A DNA stretch of 64,000 nt from Gemmatimonas phototrophica (GTDB lineage Bacteria > Gemmatimonadota > Gemmatimonadetes > Gemmatimonadales > Gemmatimonadaceae), in assembly GCF_000695095.2 (NCBI RefSeq), contig NZ_CP011454.1:620001-684000 (forward strand), given 5' to 3'. The notes beneath the pieces were generated by a model that was not told the DNA's origin, made no database searches, and worked only from the letters and a program-made list of their open reading frames with translations. Position numbers and translations under genes: made by a program. Below, in pieces: positions 19,802 through 45,215 of the stretch. Every line of letters starts with the position of its first letter. Positions within the stretch are counted from its first letter, which is position 1.

Positions 19802-21157
19802 TCAGGCGGTCTCCTGCGGAACCTGTACTCGCAGCACCAGTACCGCGGCCAGCGCCATGAACGCCCCGCCAGCCACGACAGCCGCCATGCGGTTGTTGTT
19901 CAGCATGCTGTTCATCACCCAGCCAAAGCCCAGAGAGGCCACGATCTCGGGAATGACGATGAAGAAATTGAAGAGCCCCATGTACACGCCGGTCTTTCCC
20001 TTGGGCAGCGACGTGGACAGCATCACATAGGGCATGGAGATGGTGCTCGCCCACGCGATGCCCACGCCCACCATCGACAGCAGCAGCAGGTTGGGCGAGG
20101 TAATGACCGACACACTGCCCAGCCCCGCGGCACCGGCCAGCAGGCAGAGTGCGTGCGTGGTGCGTGGGCCGAAGCGCTTCGAGAGCGACGGCAGGAAGAA
20201 CGAGAACAGGAAGGTGACGGCCGAGTAGGCGCCAAAGCACACCCCGCCCCACTCCACACCCTGCTGGTACCGCGGGTCACTGGTGTCGGTCGCGCCAAAC
20301 ACGTTGGTCGCCACCGCCGTGCCGAAGTACAACCACATGCAGAAGAGTCCCAGCCAGGTGCACACCTGCACCAGCGCCAGCTGCTTCATGGTGGTGGGCA
20401 TGGCCTTGGCGGCGGCGACAATGTCACGCACGCCGGCGGCAAAACCGGCACTCGCCGCCTTTTCCCGCTCGAACGCCGCCAGATCCTCCGGCGGCTTCTC
20501 CTTCGTGGTGAGCACCGTGTACATCACCGCGCCGAAGAAGGCGAAGGCACCGACATAAAACGAGAGGCGCACGGTGGTGGGAATCGTACCCGGTGTGCTG
20601 GCCGCGACGCCAAACCAGTTGGTGAGCATCCAGGGCATGGCCGACGCAATCACCGCACCCAGCCCAATGAACAGCGACTGCATGGCAAAGCCACGTGTCC
20701 GTTCGTTGGCGGGGAGCAGATCGGCCACAAAGGCGCGGAACGGCTCCATGGAAATGTTGATCGATGCGTCGAGAATCCAGAGCAATCCGGCCGCCATCCA
20801 CAGCGTACTGCTGTTGGGCATGGCAATGAGCGCCAGCGAACTGAGAATCGCCCCGATCATGAAGAACGGTCGGCGACGCCCCCACCGGGGCGACCACGTG
20901 CGATCGCTCAGGTGCCCAATGATGGGTTGTACGATGAGCCCCGTGAGCGGCGCGGCCAGCCAGAGCATGGGGATTTCATCGGGCTTGGCACCAAGGTATT
21001 CGTAGATGGCACTCATGTTCGCCATCTGCAGTCCCCAGCCGAACTGAATGCCGAGGAACCCGAAGCTCATGTTCCAGATGGCCCAGAAGTTCGTGGGCGC
21101 ACTGGTGGCGGGCGCAGCGGCGCCTGCAGCGGCAGTACCAGCGGCGGAAGCGCTCAT
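19802..21157 (-). CDS. MFS sugar transporter, SLC45/SUT-like
   Basis: 451-aa major facilitator with about 12 membrane segments. Characteristic stretches are [21 protein letters not shown] in TM1, the loop [26 protein letters not shown] after TM2 (D-R-T-W-S-P-R-G-R-R form), and [13 protein letters not shown]. These are typical of the glycoside-cation symporter branch (sucrose, maltose). It probably moves maltose or maltooligosaccharides, given its neighbours. The start was placed at ATG 21157 rather than 67 codons upstream, because the upstream part lies inside malQ; the ATG overlaps the malQ stop (ATGA at 21154-21157). A paralogue sits at 42217-43587. Confidence 0.92.
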
Positions 21158-30272: not shown

Positions 30273-30299
30273 GCTGGTGGGGTAGGTTCACGGTAGTGA

Positions 30300-30335
30300 C
30301 CACGGCCTGCGTTCGCCTTCGAACGCAGGCCGTGG
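30300..30335 (+). terminator. Perfect 16-bp hairpin after susD
   Basis: CCACGGCCTGCGTTCG and CGAACGCAGGCCGTGG pair over all 16 bases around a CCTT loop. There is no immediate U-run (CATTCGTGGCAGTTTCC follows). It may partly terminate or stabilise the susCD message, giving lower expression of downstream genes. Confidence 0.65.
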
Positions 30336-30374
30336 CATTCGTGGCAGTTTCCCCCTCGAGATGTGAATTCGCTC

Positions 30375-33300
30375 ATGCTGCGCCTGTTGTTGGCGCTATC
30401 GGTCCTGGCGGTTGTTGGTTGCGGTGAGTCCACCGCGCGCCGCGCCGAGGCGCCCCCGGTTGACTCCACGTTGTTCACGCAGATGCCCTCCGCGTACACG
30501 GGGGTCCGATTTACCAATCGCGTGGTGGACTCGCAGGAACGCAATGTCTTCACCTACCGCAATTTCTATAACGGCGGTGGAGTCGCCATTGGCGACCTGA
30601 CGGGTGATGGTCTTCCGGAAGTCATCCTGACGTCCAATCAGGAAGGGCCCTCGCTGTATCTCAACGAAGGCCAGTTCCGCTTTCGTGACATCACCGACGC
30701 ATCGGATTTTGACGATGCGCAACCCTGGACCACTGGGGTTACCCTCGCCGACGTGAACGGCGACGGCAAGCTGGACATTTATGTGAGTCATGCCGGTGAC
30801 GGTGAACCGGCGACCCGCGCCAATACCCTCTGGATCAACCAGGGGCTGAACGCCGATTCGGTGCCAACCTTCAAGGAAATGGCCCGCCAGTTCGGCATCG
30901 CCGACGAGGGCTGGTCTACCCACTCGGCGTTCTTTGACTACGACCGGGACGGCGATCTCGATCTGTTGGTCATCAATAATTCGCCCCGTCCGGTGAACAG
31001 CTTCGGCCTGCGCAACACGCGCGACGAACGGCATCCGTATGGCGGCCACCACTTCTATCGCAACGATGGGGAGCGCTTCACGGAGGTCAGTGAGGCAGCT
31101 GGACTCTTCAGTGCCGAGATCGCCTTCGGACTCGGTGTCGGTGTTGGCGATGTCAATCGCGACGGCTGGCCCGACGTCTACGTGTCGAATGACTTCTTCG
31201 AGCGCGATTATCTGTACCTCAATCAGCAGAATGGCACGTTCAAAGAAGTGCTTGACCAGGTCATGCCGGTCTCGAGCTACTTCTCCATGGGTATGGATAT
31301 CGGCGATGTGGACAACGACGGGTGGCCCGACCTGTACACCACCGATATGATGCCGGAGGATGAATTCCGCATCAAGACCACCGCGATGTACGAAGGGTGG
31401 GATGTGTACATGGCCAAGGTCCGTGACGGGTACCATCACCAGCTCATGCGCAACATGCTGCAGCGCAACAATGGCGATGGCACCTTCAGCGATGTGGGGT
31501 ATCTCACCCGGACGGCCGAGACCGACTGGAGCTGGAGCGCCCTCATTGCCGATCTCGATCTTGATGGGCGCAAGGACGTCTACGTCACGAATGGGCTCGC
31601 GCGCGATGTCACGTCGCAGGATTATGTGGCGTTCCTGGCTGATCGCACCACGATGGAGCGCGAGGCCAGCGGTCCGCGGGTGGACTTCATGCGCCTCATC
31701 AATGCCATGAGTTCCACCCCGATTGCCGATTACGCGTTCCGCAATGACGGCAACTGGACCTTCAGCAATCAGGCTGCCACGTGGGGGCTGGCCGCGCCCA
31801 ATATCTCCAGCGGAGCCGCGTACGGCGATCTCGATGGCGATGGCGCCCTCGACCTGATCGTGAACAACGTGAACGCCGAGAGCTTTGTCTATCGCAACAA
31901 TGCGCGCACGTTGCTCAAGGACCGGCATTGGTTGCAGGTGCGTCTTGCGGGCGAGGGCAAGAATCCCTATGCAGTGGGCGCGCGCGTCACGGTGCACGCC
32001 GGACCGGATCTCTACATGCAGGAGCTCTATCCGGCCCGTGGGTTCCAGTCGAGTGTCGATTACGCCCTGACCTTCGGACTCGGAAACCATACCACGGCAG
32101 ACTCGGTGGTCATTCTCTGGCCGAACGGTACGCGGAGTGCTGCCACCGTGACCGCCATCGATACGGCCATCACCATTGCGCAGCGCGGTGCGGCCGATCG
32201 CAGCCCGCCGTACGTGGCGCCCGCGGTCAGTCCACTGCTCGTGAACGTCACGGCGACCTCCGGTCTGGCGTTCACGCACGCCGAGAACGACTACGTGGAT
32301 TTCGACCGGGAGCGCCTGATCCCGCGCATGCTATCCACCGAAGGGCCGGCACTGGCAGTGGGTGACGTGAATGGCGACGGCCTCGACGATGTGTACGTGG
32401 GGGGGGCCAAAGAACAGCCGGGTGCGCTGTTTGTGCAGTCGGGCAACGGGACGTTTACTGCGGTTTCCAACGCTGCCTTCGTGAGCGATGCCGCCTCGGA
32501 AGATGTACATGCGCTCTTCTTTGATGCCGACCGCGACGGCGATCGGGATCTCTATGTGGTAAGCGGCGGGAACGAGTTCAGCGAGGACAGCCCGGCTTTG
32601 CAGGATCGTCTGTATCTGAACGATGGTCGTGGACGCTTCACACGCGCGGAGGCGGCCTTGCCGGCTGCGCTCATCAGTGGCAGCGTCGTGGCTGCCGCTG
32701 ACGTGGACGCCGATGGTGATCAGGATCTGTTCGTGGGCGGCCGCAGTGTGCCGTGGCGCTATGGCGCCGACCCCAGAAGCCAACTGCTGCTCAACGATGG
32801 GCGTGGCCGCTTCACTGACGTAACGGCCAACGCGCCCGGGCTTCAGAACATTGGCATGGTGACCGATGCGCTGTGGCACGATGTGGATGGCGACCGGAAG
32901 CTCGACCTCGTGGTCGTCGGCGAGTGGATGCCTGTGGTGGTGTATCGCAGCACCGGCAGCGCCCGATTTGAGCGACTCCTGGCGCCCGGGCTCGAAAACA
33001 GTGAAGGCTGGTGGAATCGAATCATTGCCGCCGATCTCAACGGTGACGGGCGCAGTGAGTTTGTGCTTGGGAATCTGGGGCGAAACTCGCGCCTGCACGC
33101 GAGTGCCACCGAACCGCTCACCATGGTCGTGAAGGACTTCGACAACAACGGCTTCGTGGAACAGATCATCGGCATGTACAACGGCGACAAGCAGTATCCG
33201 CTGGTCCTGCGCGATGATCTCATCAAGGCGGTGCCCCCCTGGAAAGCGCGCTTCCTGAATTTCAAGGATTATGCGCTGCAAACGCTCGATGACGTGATCC

Positions 33301-33716
33301 CCGCCGCGGAACGGAAGGAGGCGGTGGTCAAACAGGCCTATCGTTTCGAGAGCGTGGTCCTGCATCGTGATGCCAACGGCGCCTTCCGGTTCGAGGCGTT
33401 GCCATTGGATGCGCAGATGGCTCCGGTGTACGGGATCGTGGCACAAGATCTCAACGGTGATGGCCGCACCGATCTCATGCTTGGTGGCAACTTTGATGGG
33501 GTCAAGCCGGAAATCGGTCGTATGGCGGCGAGTGAGGGGCTCGTCCTCCTCGGTGCTGACGGTGGCGGATTCACGGCCCTCCCTCCGTCCCGTAGCGGCT
33601 TCCGCGTGGCGGGACAAACCCGTGGGATGGCGCGCGTCACCACGCGTGGTCGCTCCCGCATCCTCGTGGCGCGGAACAACACGACGCCCCTCGTTTTCTC
33701 GGTAGAACGCCCATGA
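30375..33716 (+). CDS. CRTAC1-family lipoprotein with FG-GAP/VCBS and ASPIC/UnbV domains
   Basis: About 1113 aa, exported lipoprotein (signal core LLLALSVLAVVGC). Many FG-GAP/VCBS blades carry calcium-loop motifs such as DVNGDGKLDIY, DYDRDGDLDLL, DVDNDGWPDLY and DLDGDGALDLI, forming beta-propellers in residues about 60-480. An ASPIC/UnbV domain (about 516-597; HWLQVRLAG, GARVTVHAG, PARGFQSSVDY, LGNHTTADSVVILWPNG) follows, and a second FG-GAP propeller region takes up the C-terminal part (DVNGDGLDDVYVGGA onward). Such proteins are secreted and bind calcium and probably carbohydrate or protein; the biochemical role is unproven. GTG 30363 is an alternative start. The stop overlaps the next ATG (ATGA 33713-33716). 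Confidence 0.9.
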   Translation: MLRLLLALSVLAVVGCGESTARRAEAPPVDSTLFTQMPSAYTGVRFTNRVVDSQERNVFTYRNFYNGGGVAIGDLTGDGLPEVILTSNQEGPSLYLNEGQFRFRDITDASDFDDAQPWTTGVTLADVNGDGKLDIYVSHAGDGEPATRANTLWINQGLNADSVPTFKEMARQFGIADEGWSTHSAFFDYDRDGDLDLLVINNSPRPVNSFGLRNTRDERHPYGGHHFYRNDGERFTEVSEAAGLFSAEIAFGLGVGVGDVNRDGWPDVYVSNDFFERDYLYLNQQNGTFKEVLDQVMPVSSYFSMGMDIGDVDNDGWPDLYTTDMMPEDEFRIKTTAMYEGWDVYMAKVRDGYHHQLMRNMLQRNNGDGTFSDVGYLTRTAETDWSWSALIADLDLDGRKDVYVTNGLARDVTSQDYVAFLADRTTMEREASGPRVDFMRLINAMSSTPIADYAFRNDGNWTFSNQAATWGLAAPNISSGAAYGDLDGDGALDLIVNNVNAESFVYRNNARTLLKDRHWLQVRLAGEGKNPYAVGARVTVHAGPDLYMQELYPARGFQSSVDYALTFGLGNHTTADSVVILWPNGTRSAATVTAIDTAITIAQRGAADRSPPYVAPAVSPLLVNVTATSGLAFTHAENDYVDFDRERLIPRMLSTEGPALAVGDVNGDGLDDVYVGGAKEQPGALFVQSGNGTFTAVSNAAFVSDAASEDVHALFFDADRDGDRDLYVVSGGNEFSEDSPALQDRLYLNDGRGRFTRAEAALPAALISGSVVAAADVDADGDQDLFVGGRSVPWRYGADPRSQLLLNDGRGRFTDVTANAPGLQNIGMVTDALWHDVDGDRKLDLVVVGEWMPVVVYRSTGSARFERLLAPGLENSEGWWNRIIAADLNGDGRSEFVLGNLGRNSRLHASATEPLTMVVKDFDNNGFVEQIIGMYNGDKQYPLVLRDDLIKAVPPWKARFLNFKDYALQTLDDVIPAAERKEAVVKQAYRFESVVLHRDANGAFRFEALPLDAQMAPVYGIVAQDLNGDGRTDLMLGGNFDGVKPEIGRMAASEGLVLLGADGGGFTALPPSRSGFRVAGQTRGMARVTTRGRSRILVARNNTTPLVFSVERP

Positions 33717-35080
33717 ACGTTTCGCCTTTGCGATCGCTGCGGTACCGGTCCCTCTGCGGCGCCGCGGTCGTGTGGTTGGTAAGTGGCTGTCAATCCACTC
33801 CTGCGGTCTCCATGGAGACGCTCAATTCGGCGGCGCTGCTGCACGAGTCCATGGGTGAACTGACCAGCACCATGGTCTACGACATCTTCAGCCCGCCTCA
33901 GGCCAGCCGGGTATACAGCTACGCCAGCATCGCCAGCTACGAAGCCCTGCGGCAAGGAGACACGACGTGGGTCTCTTTGGCAGGGCAGACGCGCAACATG
34001 CCCCCGGTGCCGGCGCCGGATCGCACCAAGGAATACTCATGGGCCTTGGCCGGCGTCCGTGCGTTCCTCACGGTCAGTCATCAGCTCACGTTCTCTCGTG
34101 AACGCATGGATTCCGTGCGTATGGTGATCTCGCGCCGCTACGAGCAGGCGCTCCCGGCCGATGTGTACGCCCGCAGCATTGCCTATGGTGATACCATCGC
34201 GACGCACGTGCTGGCCTGGGCGGGCTCCGATGGCTTCAAGCAATCGCGCGGCATGCCCAAGTTCAGCATTACCAAACAAGCCGGTCGCTGGATTCCGACG
34301 CCGCCGGCCTACATGGACGCCGTCGAGCCGAACTGGGGAACCATTGCCCCCTTTGCCATGGATTCCGGCAGTCAGTTCCGTCCGTCGACCGCCATTCCCT
34401 TTGACTCTGCCAAGGGCACGGCGTTTTACACGCAGGCGCTGGAAGTGTACGACACCGGAAAGACGCTGACCGACGAACAGCGCGCCATCGCCTCCTTCTG
34501 GGATTGCAACCCCTACGTGATGAACGTGCAGGGGCACACCATGTTCGCCACCAAGAAGATTACCCCGGGTGGCCATTGGATGGGCATTGCCGGCATCGCG
34601 TCGCGAAAGGCCAACGCCTCCCTGCTGCAATCAGCCGACGCCTATGCCCGCACGGCCATGGCACTGGCCGACGGCTTCATTGCCGCGTGGGACGAGAAGT
34701 ATCACTCCGGAGTCATCCGTCCGGAGTCGGTCATCAACGCCTATATCGACGAGAAGTGGATGCCCTTGCTGCAGACGCCGCCGTTCCCCGAGTATCCCAG
34801 CGGGCACAGCGTCATCTCCACATCGGCGGCGCAGGTGCTCACCGCGATCTATGGTGAAGGATTCGCCTTCGCGGATTCCACCGAAACCCCGTACGGACTT
34901 CCCGTGCGCTCATTTCCGAGCTTCGAAGCGGCGGCCAATGAGGCGGCCATCAGCCGACTCTACGGCGGCATTCACTACCGGCAGGCGATCGAAGAAGGAC
35001 AGCGACAGGGAAAGCTGGTTGGGCAGCATCTGCTGGCGCGGATTGCCACGAAGCCAGGAACCACCATCGCCACCAAGTGA
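33713..35080 (+). CDS. Vanadium-dependent haloperoxidase-like / PAP2 superfamily lipoprotein
   Basis: 455 aa, lipoprotein (lipobox VSGC, Cys26). The C-terminal half has the PAP2/vanadate pocket: Lys329 and Arg336-Pro337 (KYHSGVIRP), Ser363-Gly-His365 (YPSGHS) and Arg415/His421 (SRLYGGIHYR). These residues bind vanadate or phosphate. In haloperoxidases His421's equivalent ligates vanadium and the enzyme oxidises halide with peroxide; related acid phosphatases use the same pocket. Sequence alone cannot decide between them, but length and helical N-terminal half fit the bacterial haloperoxidase-like group. It sits between two CRTAC1-like genes with ATGA and GTGA overlaps on both sides, so all three are made together, probably at the outer membrane. 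Confidence 0.85.
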   Translation: MNVSPLRSLRYRSLCGAAVVWLVSGCQSTPAVSMETLNSAALLHESMGELTSTMVYDIFSPPQASRVYSYASIASYEALRQGDTTWVSLAGQTRNMPPVPAPDRTKEYSWALAGVRAFLTVSHQLTFSRERMDSVRMVISRRYEQALPADVYARSIAYGDTIATHVLAWAGSDGFKQSRGMPKFSITKQAGRWIPTPPAYMDAVEPNWGTIAPFAMDSGSQFRPSTAIPFDSAKGTAFYTQALEVYDTGKTLTDEQRAIASFWDCNPYVMNVQGHTMFATKKITPGGHWMGIAGIASRKANASLLQSADAYARTAMALADGFIAAWDEKYHSGVIRPESVINAYIDEKWMPLLQTPPFPEYPSGHSVISTSAAQVLTAIYGEGFAFADSTETPYGLPVRSFPSFEAAANEAAISRLYGGIHYRQAIEEGQRQGKLVGQHLLARIATKPGTTIATK

Positions 35081-38000
35081 ACGCGGTGCGCGCGAAACAT
35101 CGGAGCCGCCTGTCGCGGTGCGGGATAGCCGCGCTCACGGTGCTCCTCGCGTGCGGCGATCAGAATGCCGCGGGCACGGACAAGCCGTCCAGTCAGCGTC
35201 CGGCCTCGCCGCGCCTTTTTGAACTGCTCCCGGCTTCGCGCACCGGTGTGACCTTTGTCAACACGCTACCGGAGTCGCCCGAGTTCAACATCTTGAACTA
35301 TCTCTACTACTACAACGGCGGTGGCGTTGCGGTGGGGGATGTGGATGGCGACGGCAAGCAGGATCTGTATCTGTCGTCCAATCTCGAACCGAATCGACTG
35401 TACCGAAATCTCGGCAATTTTCGCTTCGAAGAGATCACGGACAAAGCCGGTGTTGCAGGCCCACCCGGTTGGAAGACCGGTGTCTCAATGGCCGACGTCA
35501 ACGGCGATGGTGCGCTCGATATCTATGCGTCCGCCGTGAACTACCTCTCGATGAAAGGGCACAATGTGCTCTACATCAATGACGGCACCGGCACCTTCAC
35601 CGACCAGACTGCGGCGTATGGTCTCGAGTTCTCCGGATTCTCCACACAGTCGCTGTTTTTCGACTACGATCGGGACGGCGATCTCGATCTCTACCTGCTG
35701 AATCATTCCGTACATACTGAACGGCAGATTGGCGTCGCCGCGCGGCGTGATGTCCGGCATCCGGCGGCCGGTGACCGACTCTACCGCAACGACGGAGGGC
35801 ACTTTACCGATGTCAGCACCGCGGCGGGAATTTACGGAGGCGTGGAAGGATTCGGCCTGGGTGTGGTGGCCAGTGATGTGAACAGCGACGGCTGCATGGA
35901 CCTGTACGTCGCCAATGACTTTCAGGAGAACGACTTTCTCTACCTGAACGATTGCCGGGGACATTTCACCGAAGTAGGGACCTCGGCGTTCAGTCACACG
36001 AGTCGCTTCTCCATGGGGGCGGATGCCGCCGATATGAACGACGACGGCCGCCCTGATCTCATGACCGTCGATATGCTGCCGGAGCAGGAGGCCATCTTCA
36101 AGACCTCCGCCAGCTACGAAGGGTGGAATCTTTTCGAGATGCGGCTGCGGGCCGGCTACGGCGTCCAGTATCCGCGCAATGCCCTGCAGATCAATCGGGG
36201 CGATGGTTCCTTTGCGGAATCGGCCCTCCTGGCGGGCGTGGCGGCCAGTGATTGGAGTTGGGGGCCGTTGTTTGCCGATCTCGATAACGATGGGCGGAAG
36301 GATCTGTTCATTACCAACGGCATCTACCGGCGCCCCAATGATCTCGACTACATCAACTATGTCGGAAACGAGGCGGCGCAGTCGGCGTTGACCCGCGGCG
36401 TCACACGCGAGGAGAATCAGGATCTCCTCAAGCGCATGCCCCAGATTCCGCTGGCCAATCACGCCTATCGCAACGAGGGCGGTTTACGCTTTACGGATAT
36501 GGCGACGGCCTGGGGGCTGGATGACCTGGGCTTCTCCAACGGGTCGGCCTATGCGGATCTCGATGATGACGGTGCGCTCGACCTCGTGATCAATCGCATC
36601 AATGCGCCGGTCGCCATTTACCGAAGCCGCATGCGCGAACAGTCGGACCCGGGGCACTACCTGCAGGTGAAGCTGGTGGGCCGCCGTGGCAACACCGATG
36701 GCATTGGCGCCAAAGTCATTGCGGTGACCGGTGCGCACCGGCAGTTGGTGGAGCAGCAGCCAGTGCGTGGCTTTCAGTCCAGTGTGGACAGACGGCTGCA
36801 TCTGGGCTTCGGTGCGGACTCGGTTGCCGATTCGGTCACCGTCATCTGGCCTGACGCGAGCTATCAGCACTTCACCAACGTGGTGCTCAACCGCACGCTC
36901 ATCGTGGTACAGGACAGTGCGGCCGGACAATGGCGCTACGAGCGACCGGCGGTTGTACCGCCACGCGACAACGCGCCGGCCCTTGGGGCCGCGGTGCTGC
37001 ACGTGGAGAATGACTTCCTTGATTACAATCGCGAGCCGCTCATGCCGCACGTGGTGTCGGCGGAAGGGCCCGCGCTGGCCGTGGCCGATGTCAACGGTGA
37101 CGGTCTCGACGACATGTATGTGGGGGGCGCCAAGTGGCAGCGCGGAACCCTGCTGTTGCAGCGCCCCGACGGCCAGTTCCGTTCCTCCAGTATCCCCACG
37201 TTTGCGGCCGACAGCACGGCCGAGGACGTTGATGCCACGTTCTTTGATGCCGATGGAGATGGCGACCTCGACCTGTACGTCGTCAGCGCCGGCAACGAAT
37301 TCTGGAACGAGTTTGACGCACTCGACGACCGACTCTATCTCAACGATGGGCGCGGCAATTTCACCAGGTCGCTGAACGCTCTGCCTCGCGATGTTCGCGA
37401 GAATGGCAGTACCGTGACCGCCGCCGACTTTGATGGCGACGGAGATCAGGATCTCTTCGTCGGCTCCCGCGTGGTGGCCCGCGAGTATGGCCGCATTCCG
37501 CGCAGTCATCTGCTGCGCAACGACGGCACGGGGCGATTCAGCGAGGTCACCGACGCGGTGGCACCTGGTCTCGGGAACGCCGGTCTCGTCACGGACGCTC
37601 GCTGGGCTGATGTGAACGGCGACACGTTCCCTGACCTGATCGTGGTGGGCGAGTGGATGCCGGTGCGGATCTGGTACAACACCAGAGGACGTCTCGCAGA
37701 GCGTTCGGGTACCACCGGGCTTTCCGGGTCGGACGGATGGTGGAACAGCGTGACCGTAGCCGATCTCAACGGAGACGGCGCGCCGGATCTTGTCCTGGGC
37801 AATGCCGGCCGCAACGGCTTCCTCAAGGCGTCGGCCCGCGAACCGGTGCGCATGTACGTGCACGACTTCACCGGCACGGGGGCCACCAAACAGATCATCA
37901 CCCGCGCTGTGAATGGCGTAGCCTACCCGCTTCCCGGCCGCGATGATCTGGTGAAACTCATGCCGGCGCTTCGTCCCAAATACCCGTCGTTCACGGCCTT

Positions 38001-38466
38001 TGGTGCCAGTCGCCTTGAAGAGATTTTCGAGGCCGCCGACCTCGCGAAAGCCGAGGTACGGGAAGCGCGCACGTTTGAGAGCGCCGTGGCGCTCAATGAT
38101 GGGCGTGGGGGGTTCACGCTGACCCCGCTTCCTGTTGAGGCCCAGCTGTCGGTGATGTTTGCCTCGCTCGTGCTGGACGCCAACGGCGATGGCTACATGG
38201 ACATTCTGCTGGCGGGCAACCAGTATGGGGTGCCGCCAGTCCTCGGGCGCTATGATGCCAGCCGAGGAGCGCTGCTGCTTGGTGATGGGCGAGGTGGCTT
38301 CCGAGCGGCGGGTTCATCAGTCACCGTTCCGCTTGATGGACAGGTCCGCGGCCTGGCCTTGGTGCATCGTTCGAACAAGCCGCCGCTGTTGGCCGTCGCA
38401 CGAAACGGTGCGTCGCTGCAACTTCTGTCGTTCCCCGGTTCTTCTCCCCTGACGCCCTCCCGATGA
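35077..38466 (+). CDS. Second CRTAC1-family lipoprotein (FG-GAP/VCBS, ASPIC/UnbV)
   Basis: 1129 aa, same architecture as the gene at 30375 and clearly its paralogue. Signal peptide with lipobox LLAC (Cys near residue 25), N-terminal FG-GAP propeller (DVDGDGKQDLYLSSN, DVNGDGALDIYAS, DYDRDGDLDLYL), ASPIC/UnbV domain near residues 526-605 (HYLQVKLVGRRGN, PVRGFQSSVDRR), and a C-terminal FG-GAP region from DVNGDGLDDMYVGGA. GTG start overlaps the haloperoxidase stop (GTGA at 35077-35080), and the stop overlaps the symporter ATG (ATGA at 38463-38466). Calcium binding and surface location are expected; ligand unknown. The pair may form a heteromer. Confidence 0.9.
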   Translation: MNAVRAKHRSRLSRCGIAALTVLLACGDQNAAGTDKPSSQRPASPRLFELLPASRTGVTFVNTLPESPEFNILNYLYYYNGGGVAVGDVDGDGKQDLYLSSNLEPNRLYRNLGNFRFEEITDKAGVAGPPGWKTGVSMADVNGDGALDIYASAVNYLSMKGHNVLYINDGTGTFTDQTAAYGLEFSGFSTQSLFFDYDRDGDLDLYLLNHSVHTERQIGVAARRDVRHPAAGDRLYRNDGGHFTDVSTAAGIYGGVEGFGLGVVASDVNSDGCMDLYVANDFQENDFLYLNDCRGHFTEVGTSAFSHTSRFSMGADAADMNDDGRPDLMTVDMLPEQEAIFKTSASYEGWNLFEMRLRAGYGVQYPRNALQINRGDGSFAESALLAGVAASDWSWGPLFADLDNDGRKDLFITNGIYRRPNDLDYINYVGNEAAQSALTRGVTREENQDLLKRMPQIPLANHAYRNEGGLRFTDMATAWGLDDLGFSNGSAYADLDDDGALDLVINRINAPVAIYRSRMREQSDPGHYLQVKLVGRRGNTDGIGAKVIAVTGAHRQLVEQQPVRGFQSSVDRRLHLGFGADSVADSVTVIWPDASYQHFTNVVLNRTLIVVQDSAAGQWRYERPAVVPPRDNAPALGAAVLHVENDFLDYNREPLMPHVVSAEGPALAVADVNGDGLDDMYVGGAKWQRGTLLLQRPDGQFRSSSIPTFAADSTAEDVDATFFDADGDGDLDLYVVSAGNEFWNEFDALDDRLYLNDGRGNFTRSLNALPRDVRENGSTVTAADFDGDGDQDLFVGSRVVAREYGRIPRSHLLRNDGTGRFSEVTDAVAPGLGNAGLVTDARWADVNGDTFPDLIVVGEWMPVRIWYNTRGRLAERSGTTGLSGSDGWWNSVTVADLNGDGAPDLVLGNAGRNGFLKASAREPVRMYVHDFTGTGATKQIITRAVNGVAYPLPGRDDLVKLMPALRPKYPSFTAFGASRLEEIFEAADLAKAEVREARTFESAVALNDGRGGFTLTPLPVEAQLSVMFASLVLDANGDGYMDILLAGNQYGVPPVLGRYDASRGALLLGDGRGGFRAAGSSVTVPLDGQVRGLALVHRSNKPPLLAVARNGASLQLLSFPGSSPLTPSR

Positions 38467-40187
38467 CACAGCTGACCACGCTCGACTATGTCGTGATGGG
38501 CATCTACTTCGTCGTGGTCCTCGGTATTGGCTGGGCACTGCGGCGCATGATGCGCACCTCGACGGACTTCTTCCTGTCGGGTCGGTCGCTCCCGCCGTGG
38601 GTTACGGGCCTGGCGTTCCTCTCGGCCAATCTCGGGGCCCAGGAAGTCATTGGCATGGGCGCGTCGGGGGCGAAGTACGGTATCGCGACCAGTCACTTCT
38701 ACTGGATTGGCGCCATCCCCGCCATGGTATTCGTGGGCATCTTCATGATGCCGTTCTACTATGGCTCGAAAGCCCGCTCCGTGCCGGAGTATCTCAAGCT
38801 GCGCTTCGATGAGAAGACGCGCACGTTCAACGCGCTTGGCTTTGCGGCAATGACGGTGTTTTCGAGCGGTGTCTCCATGTACGCCATGGGGAAGCTGCTC
38901 AACCTGCTGCTCGGGTGGGACTTCGATACCAGTATCATTGTGTCGGCGGTCATCGTGCTGGCGTATGTCATGCTCGGCGGTCTCACGAGCGCGATCTACA
39001 ACGAAGTGCTGCAGTTCTTCATGATCGTGTTCGGCTTTGCGCCGCTTGTGTGGGTGGGGCTCAAGCAGGTAGGCGGATGGGATGGCCTTACGGGCAAGCT
39101 GGCAGCTGCCGCGACGCAGCGCGGACTTCCGGAATACGCTTACACCAACGTCTGGCAGGGGATGGGGTCCGCGAGCACCAACTCCATTGGTATTGAGTGG
39201 TTCGGCATGGTGATGGGATTGGGCTTCGTGCTCTCCTTTGGCTACTGGTGCACGGACTTTCTGGTGGTGCAGCGCGCCATGGCGGCCGACAGCATGACGG
39301 CCGCGCGTCGCACGCCGCTCATTGCCGCCGTGCCCAAGATGTTCTTCCCGTTCCTCGTCATCCTTCCCGGCATGATTGCGCTGGCCATGGGTGACAACAT
39401 CATTCCGGCCAAGCTTACGGCCGCCGGGGTGCCGTTGCTCGATACCAACGGGAATGTGGTGCTCGACTATGATCTCGCCACACCCATGATGCTGGTGAAG
39501 CTGTTCCCCACCGGCATGCTGGGTCTTGGCCTCACCGCCCTCATTGCCTCGTTCATGTCCGGCATGGCCGGAAACGTGACGGCGTTCAATACGGTGTGGA
39601 CCTACGACATCTATCAGGCGCACATCAGGAAGCACGCGAGCGACGAGCACTACCTGTGGATGGGACGCGTGGCGACAGTGGGCGGCATCGCGCTGTCGGT
39701 CGCGGCCGCGTACGTGGCCGGTGCGTTCAACAACATCATGGAGTTCCTGCAGCTCGTCTTTGCGTTCGTGAACGCGCCGCTGTTCGCGACATTCGCGCTG
39801 GGCATGTTCTGGAAGCGCAGCACCGGGCACGGCGCCTTCTGGGGGCTCTTTGCCGGCACGGTGGCTCCGGCCATCCATCACGGCATTTCGCTGGCCAACG
39901 GCGCTGAGGTTGGCGTGAAGGGTGGGTTCTTTGGCGTCGTGCTCAACTATCCCAGTGAAATGGCGCAGACCTTCTGGACGGCGATTGCCGCCTTCACCAC
40001 CTGTTTCGTGGTGACCATCGTCGTGAGCCTGGCCACGCCGGCCCGAAAGGAATCGGAGCTTGAAGGCTTGGTGTACTCACTCACGCCCAAGCCCACGGAC
40101 GATGCGCGGGTGTGGTATGAGAAGCCCAGCGTCTTTGCCGTGGCGGTGCTGGTGGTGATGGTTGGCTTGAACGTGGCCTTCTTCTAA
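38463..40187 (+). CDS. Sodium:solute symporter (SSS family, SGLT-like)
   Basis: 574 aa with about 14 membrane segments. Family stretches: YFVVVLGIGWALRRMMRTSTDFFLSGRSLPPWVTGLAFLSANLGAQEVIGMGASGAKYG near the N terminus, the KARSVPEYLKLRFDEKTR loop, and GLTALIASFMSGMAGNVTAFNTVWTYDIY. This wording resembles the sugar branch (vSGLT-like) more than the symporter at 6091. It is translationally coupled to the second CRTAC1 gene (ATGA), so it probably imports the product released or captured by the SusCD/CRTAC1/haloperoxidase set across the inner membrane. A small membrane protein follows after 14 bp. Confidence 0.93.
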   Translation: MTQLTTLDYVVMGIYFVVVLGIGWALRRMMRTSTDFFLSGRSLPPWVTGLAFLSANLGAQEVIGMGASGAKYGIATSHFYWIGAIPAMVFVGIFMMPFYYGSKARSVPEYLKLRFDEKTRTFNALGFAAMTVFSSGVSMYAMGKLLNLLLGWDFDTSIIVSAVIVLAYVMLGGLTSAIYNEVLQFFMIVFGFAPLVWVGLKQVGGWDGLTGKLAAAATQRGLPEYAYTNVWQGMGSASTNSIGIEWFGMVMGLGFVLSFGYWCTDFLVVQRAMAADSMTAARRTPLIAAVPKMFFPFLVILPGMIALAMGDNIIPAKLTAAGVPLLDTNGNVVLDYDLATPMMLVKLFPTGMLGLGLTALIASFMSGMAGNVTAFNTVWTYDIYQAHIRKHASDEHYLWMGRVATVGGIALSVAAAYVAGAFNNIMEFLQLVFAFVNAPLFATFALGMFWKRSTGHGAFWGLFAGTVAPAIHHGISLANGAEVGVKGGFFGVVLNYPSEMAQTFWTAIAAFTTCFVVTIVVSLATPARKESELEGLVYSLTPKPTDDARVWYEKPSVFAVAVLVVMVGLNVAFF

Positions 40188-40201
40188 CCGGAGCAACGAC
40201 G

Positions 40202-40420
40202 ATGAGTGGTGGAGCTGGTGGGATGGATCTCCGCCTGCCGATCGGCGGGCTCTTCGTGGTGCTGGGCGTCATTCTTGGCGTCTTCGGCATCATGACCAAT
40301 GGAGACGTGGCCATGTACGAGCGCAGCGCCGGGCTGAACATCAATTTGGTATGGGGCGTCGTGATGCTTGGCGTTGGCCTCATCTTTCTCGGGCTGGCGC
40401 AACGCGCCGCCCGTCGCTGA
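40202..40420 (+). CDS. Small two-pass membrane protein
   Basis: 72 aa. Two hydrophobic segments (residues about 13-31 LPIGGLFVVLGVILGVFGIM; and 47-66 LNINLVWGVVMLGVGLIFLGLA) flank a short polar loop, and a basic tail (QRAARR) ends it. A good GGAG Shine-Dalgarno lies 8 bp before the ATG. It follows the symporter by 14 bp and is the last gene of the unit, which suggests an accessory subunit, but no function is recognised. A 7-bp-stem hairpin overlaps the convergent stop sites just after it. Confidence 0.7.
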   Translation: MSGGAGGMDLRLPIGGLFVVLGVILGVFGIMTNGDVAMYERSAGLNINLVWGVVMLGVGLIFLGLAQRAARR

Positions 40421-40423
40421 CCC

Positions 40424-40447
40424 GCACACCGGTTATCCCAGGTGTGC
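40424..40447. terminator. Hairpin between convergent genes
   Basis: GCACACC and GGTGTGC pair over 7 bp around a 10-base loop. It lies across the end of the small membrane protein and the kinase stop, and so may act in both directions. Weak on its own. Confidence 0.4.
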
Positions 40448-41065
40448 CGGCCCGCGTCGCAGGTGGAAAGCGCGATCAATCAGCCAATGGGCCCGATTGC
40501 GCTGCGGCGCAATGAGCCGGTGTTCGATATCCAGAATGGTGTCGATGATCGGCTCCCAGATGTCACGGTTACGCGCCATGCGCCGCTCGTGCGTATCGGC
40601 ATGGGTGGCTTCGAGGAACACGGCCACGTCGAGTCCGTTCAGCATCAGCACGTAGGTGCCTTCGACAATCAGCACCTGCACGCCGTTGAACGCGCGGGTC
40701 TCCTGGTCGAAGCGGTTCTCCGGATAGTTCACTACCGGCGCCGTGACCGTGGCCCCGCGGCGAAACGCGGCCATGTGGTCGGTGATCAGGTTCAACTGCA
40801 CCTCCTGCGGTCCCACATTGCCAAGATCCTGCAGGCGGAACGCGTGGTTGGTGCGGGGCGGCCGGATGAAGTAGTTGTCCTGATGAATGAGGGCAGTGGC
40901 GATACCCCGGGCGGTAAGTGCGTCGGCCAATTGCGTGGCCGCCGTACTCTTGCCGCTCCCCGATTCACCCGCCACGCCAATCACCAGCGGCGTGCTTCCA
41001 AGCCGATGTTCGGTGACCAGCTGCGCGACGAGTTCAGAGACGGCGGCGCTGTTCAACGGGTCCAT
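40433..41065 (-). CDS. Uridine-kinase-like P-loop kinase
   Basis: 210 aa, cytoplasmic. Walker A GESGSGKST at residues about 33-41, a DNYF motif (HQDNYFIRPP) and the NYPENRFD region are those of the uridine kinase/phosphoribulokinase family; LIVEGTYVLML matches the catalytic E-G-x-x segment. Uridine kinases phosphorylate nucleosides, and relatives phosphorylate other small hydroxyl compounds. Context is sugar metabolism: it overlaps by 13 bp the upstream gene for a cytosolic six-hairpin glycosidase, and a sugar transporter and trehalase are divergent. The substrate could therefore be a sugar rather than uridine. The start at ATG 41065 opens the recognised domain; a longer frame upstream lies in the neighbour. 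Confidence 0.8.
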   Translation of the reverse strand: MDPLNSAAVSELVAQLVTEHRLGSTPLVIGVAGESGSGKSTAATQLADALTARGIATALIHQDNYFIRPPRTNHAFRLQDLGNVGPQEVQLNLITDHMAAFRRGATVTAPVVNYPENRFDQETRAFNGVQVLIVEGTYVLMLNGLDVAVFLEATHADTHERRMARNRDIWEPIIDTILDIEHRLIAPQRNRAHWLIDRAFHLRRGPAHLG

Positions 41066-42207
41066 GGGAGATCCACCTGGTTGAAGCGTGCCGTTTCCAG
41101 GAAGACAAACCCGGTGGCCGTATATGCCATGCCTTGGGTGCCAAGGGCTTCGCCCGTTACGCCGTGGAAGTACTCTTCGAAGTCGAAGTGTGACAGGCGG
41201 GCCAGATGCGCTGCCGTGAGCGCGTGCAGTGTCGCCACATCGGCGGGGCGACCATGACGCGCGAAGGCCAGTGCCAGCCACCCCAGCCACACGGGCCAGA
41301 TGCCGCCGTTGTGGTACTCATGCGGGCGATTCCGAAAGCCGTGCAGGTGGTAACGGGCGAGCGGCTCCCAGTCCGGGTCTCCTTCGGCAATGACCGGCGA
41401 GAAGGCCGGGGGAAGCGCGTTGGCGTTCAGGAACGTGTCGCGCATGGCGTCCAGAATGCCCGTCGTCCGGTCAGGCACGAGATCGCTCAGCGCGAGCAGG
41501 GCGCAGGCGGCAAGATCCACGTGCTCGTCGGTCCGCACGGGCGAGATGGCCGCCACCGGGAAACGTCGAGCGCCACCGTACTGCCAGTCACCAGCGGGCC
41601 AGAAACGTTCGGCAATCGTGTGGCCAATCGCCTCGGCCTTGGCGACCCACGCTGGCTCGTTGGCGACCGTCCCCAGCAGACGAAGTCCCCACGCCCGCAG
41701 CACCTGATCGTACAGGATGTAGCCATCGAAGGGGTATTCGTCGGCCCAATTACCACCGGCCGGGACATACAGCAGGTGGCGGCCGTTGTATTCAATGCCG
41801 TCGAGCAGGGCGATCACGCGCGTGACGGCCGCACGATAGTCTTCGAAGTTCGCCTGGCCATGCTGACACGCGGCGCCCACACCCACCAGAAACCAGGTGG
41901 CCGAATCGAAGCGCGGGGCGAGCGTCCCGAAGCTCACGTGACGTGTGTCGTCGGCCTCCACCCGGAAGTTCGAGGCAATCTGCCCCTGCGGTCCTTGCAG
42001 GTCGCGCAGATGCTCGAGCGTTCGCACCAAACCGGCCGTGATCGGCGCATCGCCAATCGTGAGCCCGGCCAGTCCCGCCATAATCGCGTCGCGCGCGAAA
42101 ATGGCGGCGTAGTTCGCCACACTGCTGCGTGAAGCGCGAATGCCCAGAGGCGTCGCGAGCTCACGGAGCAGCGTGATGGAATCGTTGAGAGGAAGATCGT
42201 CCTTCAT
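41053..42207 (-). CDS. Cytosolic six-hairpin glycosidase (GH100/debranching-like)
   Basis: 384 aa, no signal peptide. Helical repeats hold FARDAIMAGLAGL near residue 37, RDLQGPQGQIASNFRV, GGNWADEYPFDGYILYDQVLRAWG near 160 and EYHNGGIWPVWLGWLALA near 310. The YHNGG.WPV stretch and the FARD motif are those of (alpha/alpha)6-barrel enzymes such as GH100 invertases and GH63/debranching proteins; the exact family is uncertain. The Asp and Glu of WADEYPFD may be catalytic. It starts at ATG 42207, only 9 bp from the divergent MFS gene, and ends inside the kinase gene. It probably cleaves a sugar brought in by that transporter. Confidence 0.75.
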   Translation of the reverse strand: MKDDLPLNDSITLLRELATPLGIRASRSSVANYAAIFARDAIMAGLAGLTIGDAPITAGLVRTLEHLRDLQGPQGQIASNFRVEADDTRHVSFGTLAPRFDSATWFLVGVGAACQHGQANFEDYRAAVTRVIALLDGIEYNGRHLLYVPAGGNWADEYPFDGYILYDQVLRAWGLRLLGTVANEPAWVAKAEAIGHTIAERFWPAGDWQYGGARRFPVAAISPVRTDEHVDLAACALLALSDLVPDRTTGILDAMRDTFLNANALPPAFSPVIAEGDPDWEPLARYHLHGFRNRPHEYHNGGIWPVWLGWLALAFARHGRPADVATLHALTAAHLARLSHFDFEEYFHGVTGEALGTQGMAYTATGFVFLETARFNQVDLPWTR

Positions 42208-42216
42208 GGAGAACCG

Positions 42217-43587
42217 ATGGCCAGTACAATGACTGCGGGGTCGACGTCGGCGTCCGCGGGGAGTGCCCCCCAGCGTCCGCATTTGTCGTTCATGTCCATC
42301 GTGAACATGAACGTTGGATTCTTCGGAATCCAGTACAGCTTTGGGCTCCAGCAGAGCAACATGAGCCCCATTTACCGGTATCTGGGGGCCGACGAGGCCA
42401 GTTTGCCGCTGTTGTATCTGGCGGGGCCGGTCACGGGGCTCATTGTGCAGCCCATCATCGGGGCAATGAGCGACCGGACCCTGAGCCCACGCGGCCGGCG
42501 AACGCCGTTCTTTCTGGTCGGGGCGCTGCTCTGTTCTCTGTCGCTGCTGGCCATGCCCTTCAGTCGTACGCTCTGGATGGCGGCCGGCATTCTGTGGATT
42601 CTGGATGCGGCGAACAACATCACCATGGAGCCGTACCGTGCGTATGTCTCCGACCGGCTGAATGACGGTCAGACCTCGTTGGGCTTCCTGACGCAAAGTG
42701 CCTTCACGGGACTCGGGCAGACGCTGTCGTACATCACACCGTCCCTGTTGGTCTTTCTGGGCATGAATCGGGATGCGGTGAACGATCGGGGAATTCCGAA
42801 CATCACCATGCTCGCGTTCCTCATGGGCGCCGTCTTTTCGACGGCGTCCATTCTGTGGTCGCTCAAGCAGGTCCCCGAGTTGCCGCTCACGCCCGACGAG
42901 CGCCGTCACATCGAACAGATGCCGCGGGGCTTCGGCAACACCCTGCGGGAAATCGTGGACGCCTTGCGCGACATGCCCACGACCATGCGACAGATGGCGG
43001 TCATGAAGTTCTTCCAGTGGTACGCCATGTTCTGCTACTGGATCTACATTGCACCGGCGCTCGCCCTCACGCTGTTCGACACCAAGGATGCCACTTCCGC
43101 CGGCTTCCGTGAGGCCGGGTTGGTAACGGGGCAGGTGGGCGCCTTCTACAACTTCATCGCCTTCGTAGCAGCGTTTGCCATGGTGCCCATCACGCGCCGC
43201 ATCGGTGCGAAATGGATGCACACGATTGCCCTGGTTGCCGCATCCGTGTCCATGATGGCCATTCCCGCCATCGACAACCGCGCTCTGCTTTTTGTCCCCA
43301 TGCTGGGGATCGGCCTGGGCTGGGGGAGCATGATGGGCAATCCGTACGTGATGCTCTCCGACTCCATTCCGCGCAATCGCGTGGGCGTGTACATGGGCGT
43401 GTTCAACATGTTCATCGTCATCCCCATGCTGATTCAGAATCTCACCCTGCCGCTGTACTACGAGTCACTGCTCGGGGGCAATCCGGCCAGTGTCATTCGT
43501 CTCGCGGGCGTGTTGCTGGGGTGCGCAGCGGTCGCCTGCGCCTTCGTCACGGTGAAGAAGGCGTCCACCGCCGTCGAGGCGTCGTGA
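42217..43587 (+). CDS. MFS sugar transporter, SLC45/SUT-like (second copy)
   Basis: 456 aa, 12 membrane segments, paralogue of 19802-21157. Shared stretches: NMNVGFFGIQYSFGLQQSNMSPIYRYLGA in TM1, [31 protein letters not shown], and MEPYRAYVSDRL. The glycoside-cation symporter group moves sucrose, maltose or similar disaccharides. It is followed by an exported trehalase with a 1-bp stop/start overlap, and it diverges from the glycosidase-kinase pair. The start could be ATG 42217 or the fifth codon (42229). The divergent start codons are only 9 bp apart, so the promoters must lie in coding sequence. Confidence 0.92.
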   Translation: MASTMTAGSTSASAGSAPQRPHLSFMSIVNMNVGFFGIQYSFGLQQSNMSPIYRYLGADEASLPLLYLAGPVTGLIVQPIIGAMSDRTLSPRGRRTPFFLVGALLCSLSLLAMPFSRTLWMAAGILWILDAANNITMEPYRAYVSDRLNDGQTSLGFLTQSAFTGLGQTLSYITPSLLVFLGMNRDAVNDRGIPNITMLAFLMGAVFSTASILWSLKQVPELPLTPDERRHIEQMPRGFGNTLREIVDALRDMPTTMRQMAVMKFFQWYAMFCYWIYIAPALALTLFDTKDATSAGFREAGLVTGQVGAFYNFIAFVAAFAMVPITRRIGAKWMHTIALVAASVSMMAIPAIDNRALLFVPMLGIGLGWGSMMGNPYVMLSDSIPRNRVGVYMGVFNMFIVIPMLIQNLTLPLYYESLLGGNPASVIRLAGVLLGCAAVACAFVTVKKASTAVEAS

Positions 43588-45215
43588 TGAAGCCGCGGCA
43601 TGTGCTGAGCGCGATGCTCCTGGCCAGTTGTTCGACGGCCGAGCAACCGAGGGGCGCCGCGCGCATTCCTGCCGATAGCACCGGCACAGCGCTCGCCGTG
43701 ACGCCGTACGATCCCTCGCGCGATCTCGGTGGGTTGTTCGTGGACGCGCAGATGATGAGCATCTACCCTGATTCAAAGACGCTGGTAGACGCGACCCCCA
43801 AGCGCGATCCGCAGCAGATTGCCGATGCGTATCTGGCAGAGAAGACCAAGGCCAACTTCTCGCTCAAGAACTTCATGAAGCGGGAGTTCGCGGCGCCGAC
43901 CTCTCCCAACGTGGCTGCCTCCGACGCGGTCCAGCGAACCATGGAGGAGCATATTGCCGATCTGTGGCCGGTGCTCACCCGTCAGGCTGATGTGAACGAT
44001 CCCCGGTCGTCGCTCCTCCCGCTGCCCAAGGCGTACATCGTGCCGGGTGGACGATTCCGCGAGGTGTACTACTGGGACTCGTACTTTACGATGCTTGGAT
44101 TGATCGAAAGTGGCCGCACGGAGCAGATGGGGCAGATGCTGGATAATTTTGCGCATCTGGTGCGCACCGTAGGTCACATTCCGAACGGCAATCGCACCTA
44201 TTATCTGAGTCGCAGTCAGCCGCCCTACTTTGCGGCCATGGTGGGCCGGTACGCACAGGCGACCGATAGCCTGAAAGGCGCGGCGTATCTCGAGGCCATG
44301 GAAGCAGAACATCGCTTCTGGATGGATGGGGCAGATACGCTCCGCCCCGGGTCCGCCTACCGACGGGTCGTTCGCCTCGCCGACGGCAGTGTGCTGAACC
44401 GCTATTGGGATGACCGTCCCGAACCACGACCGGAGTCGTTCAAGGAAGACTTCACGACGGCGCAGACGCTTCCCGAAGCCCAACGTGAACTGTTCTACCG
44501 CAACGTGCGCGCCGCCGCCGAAAGTGGCTGGGACTTCTCCAGCCGGTGGATGCGGAATCCGCAGTCCCTGGTTTCGTTGGAGACCACGGCGCTGGTTCCG
44601 GTAGATCTCAACAGTTTGCTGTACCATACCGAGCGCACCATTGCGGCGCTCCGGCGTGTCCGCAACGCCAAGGGTGACGATGACGTGGCCGAACGATTCG
44701 AAGAATTGGCTGAAGCACGCAAGGCGGCCATTCTTCGCAACATGTGGGATGCCGGCAGCGGCTTCTTTTACGATGTGCGCTGGAGTCGTGGGGAACGGGT
44801 GACCGATCGCCCCACGATGGCCGCCGCCGCGCCGCTGTATTTCGGCATCGCGACCGCGGAACAGGCCGCCCAGGTCGTGGCGCGGTTGCGGACCGATTTC
44901 CTCAAGCCCGGCGGCTTCACCACCACGCTGATTGCCTCTGGCCAACAGTGGGACGCACCCAATGGCTGGCCGCCGCTGCAGTGGGTGGCCATGGAAGGCG
45001 CGCGTCGCTACGGCCATGCGGAGTTGGCCAATACTGCGCGCGCACGGTGGCTGGCGCTCAACCGCAAAGTGTACAAGGCCACCGGCAAGCTCACGGAGAA
45101 ATACGACGTCTGGGATCTCTCCAAGCGCGCCGGCGGCGGTGAATACCCAACGCAAGATGGCTTCGGATGGACCAACGGCGTGGCACTGACCCTCTCCCGG
45201 CAGCAGCAGAAGTGA
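43587..45215 (+). CDS. treA: Trehalase (GH37), lipoprotein
   Basis: 542 aa, hydrolyses trehalose to two glucose outside the cytoplasm. Both trehalase signatures are present: PGGRFREVYYWDSYF near residue 155 and QWDAPNGWPPLQ near 455. The catalytic Asp region follows the first signature, and EKYDVWDLSKRAGGGEYPTQDGFGW closes the barrel. The N terminus is a short lipoprotein signal (MLLASC, Cys15). The start was set at ATG 43587, overlapping the MFS stop by one base (TGATG); a longer frame upstream runs within the MFS gene. The glucose, or trehalose itself, would be taken up by the MFS partner. A gene-free block with a long inverted repeat follows. Confidence 0.95.
   Translation: MKPRHVLSAMLLASCSTAEQPRGAARIPADSTGTALAVTPYDPSRDLGGLFVDAQMMSIYPDSKTLVDATPKRDPQQIADAYLAEKTKANFSLKNFMKREFAAPTSPNVAASDAVQRTMEEHIADLWPVLTRQADVNDPRSSLLPLPKAYIVPGGRFREVYYWDSYFTMLGLIESGRTEQMGQMLDNFAHLVRTVGHIPNGNRTYYLSRSQPPYFAAMVGRYAQATDSLKGAAYLEAMEAEHRFWMDGADTLRPGSAYRRVVRLADGSVLNRYWDDRPEPRPESFKEDFTTAQTLPEAQRELFYRNVRAAAESGWDFSSRWMRNPQSLVSLETTALVPVDLNSLLYHTERTIAALRRVRNAKGDDDVAERFEELAEARKAAILRNMWDAGSGFFYDVRWSRGERVTDRPTMAAAAPLYFGIATAEQAAQVVARLRTDFLKPGGFTTTLIASGQQWDAPNGWPPLQWVAMEGARRYGHAELANTARARWLALNRKVYKATGKLTEKYDVWDLSKRAGGGEYPTQDGFGWTNGVALTLSRQQQK

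Follow-up and report, generated by a model that had tools for sequence, protein, structure and literature searches.

A conserved transporter-glycosidase-kinase gene unit in Gemmatimonas phototrophica and its possible role in sucrose utilization

A 64,000-nucleotide stretch of the Gemmatimonas phototrophica genome (assembly GCF_000695095.2, contig NZ_CP011454.1, positions 620,001 to 684,000; hereafter the window, to which coordinates refer unless a genome or locus is named) was analyzed with a focus on a kinase gene, KIN, the glycosidase gene upstream of it, GH, and a neighboring gene for a transporter of the major facilitator superfamily (MFS). These genes form a conserved three-gene unit, MFS-GH-KIN, for which we propose a function in utilization of sucrose or a closely related disaccharide.

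Organization and distribution of the gene unit

KIN (minus strand, 41065..40433) codes for a 210-aa kinase, assigned on the basis of its open reading frame (ORF) and of family and domain comparisons to the PRK/uridine kinase (UK) superfamily, with a sequence resembling the sucrose kinase (SK) domain of AgaSK. Directly upstream on the same strand, GH (42207..41053) codes for a 384-aa glycosidase whose ORF, Pfam matches and predicted structure point to an (alpha/alpha)6 fold nearest to GH100 invertases. The MFS gene (plus strand, 42217..43587; 456 aa) was placed nearest to sucrose transporters (SUC1) by family matches, structure matches and orthologue distribution. It is followed on the same strand by a trehalase gene (GH37; 43587..45215) whose product has a lipoprotein-like N-terminus as judged by eye and which, from ORF, family and distribution data, is a frequent neighbor and not a required part of the unit. 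In an initial annotation, both KIN and GH were described as facing the transporter and trehalase genes; in fact, the GH-KIN pair stands back-to-back with MFS, with only 9 bp (42208..42216) between the divergent start codons. This 9-bp spacer was also observed in L041-L046, and it implies either that promoters are located inside coding sequence or that start codons were taken too early. No sigma-70-type promoter was found in 40150-43650 (shuffled sequence averages 0.7), and no Rfam match at the gathering score was present anywhere in the window.

The 13-bp overlap of the 3' end of GH with the 5' end of KIN (minus strand, 41053..41065), which had been noted initially, was borne out by the coordinates of both reading frames. 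A candidate KIN start codon overlaps the GH stop codon in 20/20 loci, window included (13 bp in 6 loci, 4 bp in 13 and 8 bp in one; these start codons are candidates and not proven). With such recurrence, the overlap is more than chance, and translational coupling of the two genes is probable.

Among 395 Gemmatimonadota genomes, GH was detected in 20 and KIN in 22, and KIN was located directly downstream of GH in each of the 20 GH-containing genomes (the genome sets analyzed include incomplete assemblies, and absences are approximate). The query alignments had been built from 8 GH and 9 KIN sequences, and new finds amounted to 12 and 13, respectively. Of the 19 GH-KIN loci that could be assessed, 18 had MFS next to GH in divergent orientation; in locus L100, its place was occupied by a sodium:solute symporter, and genes for a TonB receptor and a LacI regulator were close by. 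Distances of GH and KIN were correlated across the 20 loci (r 0.84; 0 of 2000 permutations were as high), but this is no evidence of interaction because shared descent would give the same result. The two genomes with KIN and without GH were G032 and G151. In the latter, a divergent KIN relative (41% identity; L101:8199-12972, G151:C13) lies directly downstream of a glycosyltransferase gene, the product of which is GT4-type and partly similar to sucrose-phosphate synthase (2r60, E 1.8e-11), with a better match to MshA-type 3c48 (9.8e-17); the KIN relative also adjoins a gene for a cyclic-nucleotide-binding/PRK-like fusion protein.

A set of 61 genomes (own genome and 60 relatives) gave a similar picture. 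KIN matches at E 1e-5 occurred in 35 genomes, of which 9 had orthologues (58-100% identity); other matches were Udk-like paralogues (24-35%), which were also present in eight of the nine orthologue-containing genomes. An MFS orthologue (72-100%) was found in exactly the same 9 genomes, with only a 41-43% paralogue in G007, G022 and G031, and GH was found in 8 of the 9. Trehalase genes, in contrast, do not track KIN: they were present in 17 of the 61 genomes, 6 with and 11 without KIN. They were also present in 12 of the 20 GH-KIN stretches and absent or reduced to a 33-aa remnant in L044, L045, L047, L089, L093, L097 and L100, although the sequence soon runs out on some of these contigs and, in L092, stops before trehalase can be judged. 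The module is therefore best described as transporter, GH and KIN, with trehalase optional. Trehalose, one of the assay substrates named in the initial annotation, was rejected as the main theme of the module given that trehalase and KIN are distributed independently.

Relationship of the kinase to uridine kinases and the sucrose kinase domain

KIN has a Walker A motif (GESGSGKS, residues 33-40), a motif QDNYFIRPPRTNH (residues 62-74), VGPQEV (residues 84-89) and a short lid (RRMARNRD, residues 161-168). Its match to the PRK/uridine kinase family (PF00485; 44.1 bits, gathering score 22) agrees with the uridine-kinase-like label originally given to it. Against Udk (TIGR00235), however, it scored 65.0 bits, far below the curated cut-off of 220.3. 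Compared with 22 Gemmatimonadota Udks, a consensus of 21 KIN sequences retained Walker A and the DxY motif, whereas the HPDAFD and YxFxxH segments of Udks were replaced, with RPPRTNH and VGPxEV in this part of the protein, and the lid was eight residues shorter and lacked the RGR segment. KIN is thus not a Udk in character. A search for a separate udk in the same genome, which had been suggested as a check, located one at G000:C1:2822527-2823084 (151.7 bits, versus 43.3 for KIN). Nucleoside salvage, already viewed with doubt in the initial annotation, is unlikely because the genome has its own udk, KIN is far below the Udk cut-off and the columns conserved in Udks are lost. KIN was also distant from PRK09270-type kinases (NF006746; 37.9 bits, cut-off 250), to which FrcK of Sinorhizobium meliloti presumably belongs, apparently a PRK subfamily other than that of KIN. 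No relative was found when viral contigs were scanned with the KIN alignment, and the predicted structure of KIN was of low quality (pLDDT 48, pTM 0.47).

A tblastn search with KIN against 72,556 plasmids matched 6 records, the best of which was from Gemmatirosa (57%). The best match outside Gemmatimonadota came from Agathobacter rectalis, at the C-terminus of an alpha-galactosidase (27% identity over residues 27-198, E 9e-10), and the remaining four records were annotated as udk. The A. rectalis protein (947 aa, L103) has ATP-binding cassette (ABC) genes for sugar transport on one side and a gene for sucrose phosphorylase on the other, which is the layout of an AgaSK locus. According to PMC7688924, AgaSK consists of an alpha-galactosidase fused to a sucrose kinase domain, the Ruminococcus gnavus kinase domain by itself has sucrose kinase activity (kcat 2.4 per second, Km 1.0 mM), and full-length R. 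gnavus AgaSK is matched by its E. rectale counterpart at >90% identity. Unlike AgaSK, KIN is a single-domain protein with no fused GH36 alpha-galactosidase; however, such a fusion is not a defining trait of sucrose kinases because Clostridium sp. L2-50 carries the sucrose kinase as a separate gene (PMC7688924).

The relationship between KIN and the SK domain was tested in both directions and found to be specific. All 21 KIN proteins scored higher against the SK domain (62-94 bits over ~190-220 residues) than against the G. phototrophica Udk (37-60 bits). A profile of the 21 KIN sequences gave 102.3 bits for the SK domain and 147 bits for the divergent G151 copy, compared with 48-64 bits for the 22 Udks (maximum 64.1), 45.5 for E. 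coli Udk, 26 for CoaA and 17 for PrkB, while a Udk profile gave the SK domain 18.0 bits. Among 61 columns conserved in KIN, 34 were shared with the SK domain and 22 with Udk, 19 being SK-only and 7 Udk-only. When the SK domain was used as query against 37 genomes, the KIN locus was the only match in 22/22 KIN-containing genomes (E 5.8e-17 to 1e-5), and the 15 KIN-negative genomes gave no match below E 0.0035. Against plasmids at E 0.01, the same query retrieved its own record alone, a sign of how distant the relationship to KIN is. Taken at the level of sequence, these data make ATP-dependent phosphorylation of sucrose a candidate activity of KIN.

Features of the glycosidase and the transporter

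GH has no signal peptide visible by eye and is nearest in sequence to GH100 neutral invertases. It matched Glyco_hydro_100 (PF12899) at 43.6 bits (gathering score 23.6), over residues 292-364 only, and in a plasmid search it matched four records, including two Deinococcus proteins annotated as GH100 (33% identity over a third of the protein). A structure predicted from five sequences (pLDDT 72, pTM 0.81) was compared with known folds. With Foldseek, the model matched only GH100 invertases in ranks 1-9 (E 4.3e-7 for the best, 7.4e-4 for the next family). With VIA-align, a neutral invertase was the top match of the model (Z 26.6, rmsd 3.5-3.6, 321-325 residues aligned) and GH100 proteins had Z values of 25.0-26.6; amylo-1,6-glucosidase 7vma (Z 24.9) was tied with the lowest GH100 rows, and trehalase and mannosylglycerate hydrolase were at Z ~20, fold families unlisted by VIA-align not being thereby excluded. 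The catalytic residues of GH100 are Asp188 and Glu414 (InvA), with Arg430 (InvB numbering) (PMC6995568). D156 and E345 of GH, which align with InvA Asp188 and Glu414 and are invariant in 20/20 sequences, form a candidate catalytic pair. At the level of the computed model, the GH100-like fold and this pair are shown, and hydrolysis of sucrose is the predicted activity.

Solved structures nearest to MFS were the SUC1 sucrose transporter (E 3.3e-17) and SLC45A4. A second MFS gene is present ~20 kb away on the minus strand (19817-21148; G000:C1:639817-641148), and its product is 41% identical to that of the module MFS.

Proposed function, alternatives and relation to known systems

With KIN matching the SK domain, GH nearest to GH100 and MFS nearest to SUC1, the three proteins point to sucrose independently of each other, each weakly to moderately. 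We propose, with a probability of roughly one half, that sucrose or a close disaccharide is the main substrate of KIN, which would be an ATP-dependent kinase whose partners are a sucrose-type importer and a GH100-like hydrolase of (phospho)sucrose. MFS would import sucrose or a closely related disaccharide, KIN would phosphorylate the intact disaccharide with ATP, as the SK domain of AgaSK does, and the co-translated GH would cleave the (phospho)disaccharide to one free hexose and one hexose phosphate. The free hexose would then be taken up by ROK kinases, genes for which were found in 37/37 genomes checked. The initial annotation had suggested phosphorylation of a sugar or sugar-nucleoside following hydrolysis. 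A sugar kinase role of KIN is well supported by linkage and by the SK-domain match; as for the order of events, the kinase may act before the hydrolase because its sucrose kinase relative phosphorylates an intact disaccharide. Both sucrose as the substrate and this order are inferred. The substrates initially listed for assay of the kinase did not include sucrose, the very sugar toward which all three proteins of the module point.

Several observations weigh against this proposal. Udk was the best curated family of KIN, as it was of the SK domain, and the solved structures nearest to KIN were uridine kinases of Thermus (E 9.3e-8). KIN and the SK domain are only 24-31% identical, the SK domain has a Trp where KIN and Udk have G136, and the comparisons were made with the A. 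rectalis homologue of the assayed R. gnavus enzyme and not with the R. gnavus sequence itself. For MFS, the best curated family, the GPH sucrose/proton symporters (TIGR01301), gave 87.1 bits compared with a cut-off of 511. The alignment that places D156 of GH is weak, and Met360 occupies the position of GH100 Arg430 in 20/20 sequences, which is why we refer to GH as GH100-like and not as GH100; this change could accompany a changed substrate, e.g., phosphorylated sucrose. Alpha-amylase-family genes occur near KIN in six loci (L048, L090, L091, L092, L095 and L097, only some neighbors of KIN loci having been scanned), which would suit maltose. G032 has kept KIN, MFS and trehalase and lacks GH; no GH remnant above chance was detected in the 286 bp between its KIN and MFS genes (L048:8849-9134). 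A GH32 gene is present elsewhere in G032, but its product is no cytosolic stand-in for GH because the N-terminus looks like that of an exported lipoprotein. Of the 37 genomes checked, 5 have GH32 genes; that of G. phototrophica has none. Finally, in the table in PMC7844134, sucrose is listed as not utilized by G. phototrophica AP64, presumably the strain analyzed here; we consider this a weak negative, since yeast extract is the sole carbon source listed there as used.

The same linkage data would fit a reverse order of events, in which sucrose or a different disaccharide is first hydrolyzed by GH and one of the resulting hexoses is phosphorylated by KIN, which would be a PRK/UK-fold fructokinase or glucokinase. 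GH is located upstream of KIN in the operon, the G032 genome shows that KIN can do without GH, and a PRK-like structure deposited as a fructokinase (3c8u) was among the weak Protein Data Bank matches of KIN (E 3.9e-4, residues 23-65). However, with ROK kinases in all genomes checked, there is no obvious lack of a hexose kinase, and the nearest characterized kinase type phosphorylates a disaccharide. In addition, the fructokinase of S. meliloti is Frk and not the PRK-like FrcK (PMC10433430); an FrcK-like fructokinase function for KIN was rejected for this reason. On balance, hydrolysis before phosphorylation is unlikely but deserves serious attention. A role of the module in an alpha-glucan context, with a different alpha-glucoside as substrate (e.g., maltose, trehalose or isomaltose), we consider rather improbable. 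The alpha-amylase-family genes in six loci, the trehalase genes in 12 of 20 stretches, the position of 7vma close behind GH100 in the fold comparison and the sucrose-negative record of AP64 would be consistent with it, whereas GH100 ranked first by both sequence and fold, most trehalase-containing genomes (11 of 17) lack KIN, and several KIN loci have no trehalase gene or just a remnant of one. Moreover, neither KIN nor GH was found in G029, the presumed G. groenlandica, and this species uses trehalose and glucose (PMC7844134).

Other explanations have far lower probability. KIN distribution tracks MFS more exactly than GH, and KIN might modulate the transporter or report the sugar-phosphate pool instead of serving catabolic flux, as suggested for S. 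meliloti FrcK, whose gene overlaps frcA by 3 bp, whose mutant has about half of the fructose uptake and whose substrate is given as unknown (PMC10433430). The distance of KIN from PRK09270-type models argues against such a role, which we view as very improbable. A glucosyl- or mannosylglycerate hydrolase function for GH, with KIN as glycerate kinase, was similarly judged to have little chance of being correct. It would draw on a match of GH to glucosylglycerate hydrolase (NF047898; 32.8 bits) and a weak match to an MGH1-like Pfam model, but the former is far below the cut-off of 550 bits and confined to residues 294-365, the GH63 mannosylglycerate hydrolase is lower in the fold comparison (Z 20.1 versus 26.6), and KIN resembles a sucrose kinase; this candidate pairing was dropped. 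As for a uridine or cytidine kinase placed at the locus by chance, the udk family match and the nearest solved structures described above would agree with it, but the true udk elsewhere, the missed cut-off, the lost Udk columns and the 20/20 linkage to GH make it extremely improbable, and uridine salvage by KIN was rejected on the same grounds.

If the proposal that KIN phosphorylates sucrose is true, sucrose phosphorylation, a rare trait of gut microbes, would also occur in soil and lake bacteria. In the literature searched, the available text of PMC7688924 and PMC6521584 describes sucrose kinase from no source other than the AgaSK loci of some gut Firmicutes, the former paper limiting its spread to a few Firmicutes, and searches on sucrose kinase and on Gemmatimonas glycoside hydrolase, sucrose or kinase returned no report of the MFS-GH-KIN module. 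The presence of sucrose kinases in a second, distant lineage, where their partner is another hydrolase, would mark them as a family concealed among proteins that look like uridine kinases. It would also supply clean two-enzyme pairs with which to determine the carbon that is phosphorylated and the mode of sucrose phosphate cleavage; with regard to the carbon, the R. gnavus literature is inconsistent, with 6-glucose for the kinase and 6-fructose for the phosphorylase (PMC7688924). More tentatively, Gemmatimonadota may possess a sucrose route independent of the phosphotransferase system, comprising import by MFS, a stand-alone Udk-like sucrose kinase and a co-translated sucrose-phosphate hydrolase that would found a GH100-related family; this broader claim is possible but doubtful.

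Some features of the surrounding region were also observed. A gene for a sodium:solute symporter and a following 72-aa membrane-like ORF (38463-40420) are found together in 10 fetched loci. For L041-L046, the six closest congeners, identity of this symporter was 92-95% compared with 71-77% for KIN and GH, which suggests an unusually constrained transporter. The stretch 28698-38466 contains a SusD-like gene and genes for two large paralogous VCBS-repeat-type proteins (30363-33716 and 35077-38466), with a PAP2-like gene between them. Cross-hits in relatives put the similarity of the two paralogues at ~47%, and the PAP2 and VCBS labels reflect the look of the sequences. Parts of this block recur beside the module in many fetched loci.

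Among known systems, Udk shares with KIN the superfamily, Walker A and the DxY motif, and differs in the HPDAFD, YxFxxH and RGR-lid columns, which KIN lacks, in the family cut-off, which KIN falls below, and in being encoded by a true udk elsewhere in the genome. FrcK of S. meliloti is likewise a PRK-like kinase whose gene overlaps a sugar-transport gene, but it belongs to an ABC transporter operon, with no glycosidase partner reported in the available text of PMC10433430. GH100 invertases (Anabaena InvA and InvB, Arabidopsis NINV2) are the top fold and sequence matches of GH, with the Asp/Glu pair aligned and invariant; compared with them, GH is only 17-20% identical in the structural alignment, shorter, has Met at the Arg430 position and is linked to a kinase gene. 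SUC1 and SLC45-type sucrose transporters are the nearest solved structures to MFS, although the match is weak and below the curated sucrose-symporter cut-off. The closest parallel to KIN is offered by AgaSK, for which the comparison set was Ruminococcus gnavus, Agathobacter/Eubacterium rectale and Blautia. In both cases, genes for a glycoside hydrolase and a sugar transporter accompany that for a PRK/UK-fold kinase of ~210 aa; the two kinase sequences match over their full length, and KIN columns R68, P70, N73, R77, G85, E88, E135, T137, R167, D168, P172 and E181 are common to the SK domain; of these, R68, N73, E88 and D168 are not present in Udk. In the AgaSK of Firmicutes, the kinase is joined to a GH36 alpha-galactosidase and a GH13_18 phosphorylase comes next, whereas KIN is a stand-alone protein partnered by a GH100-like enzyme and an MFS importer.

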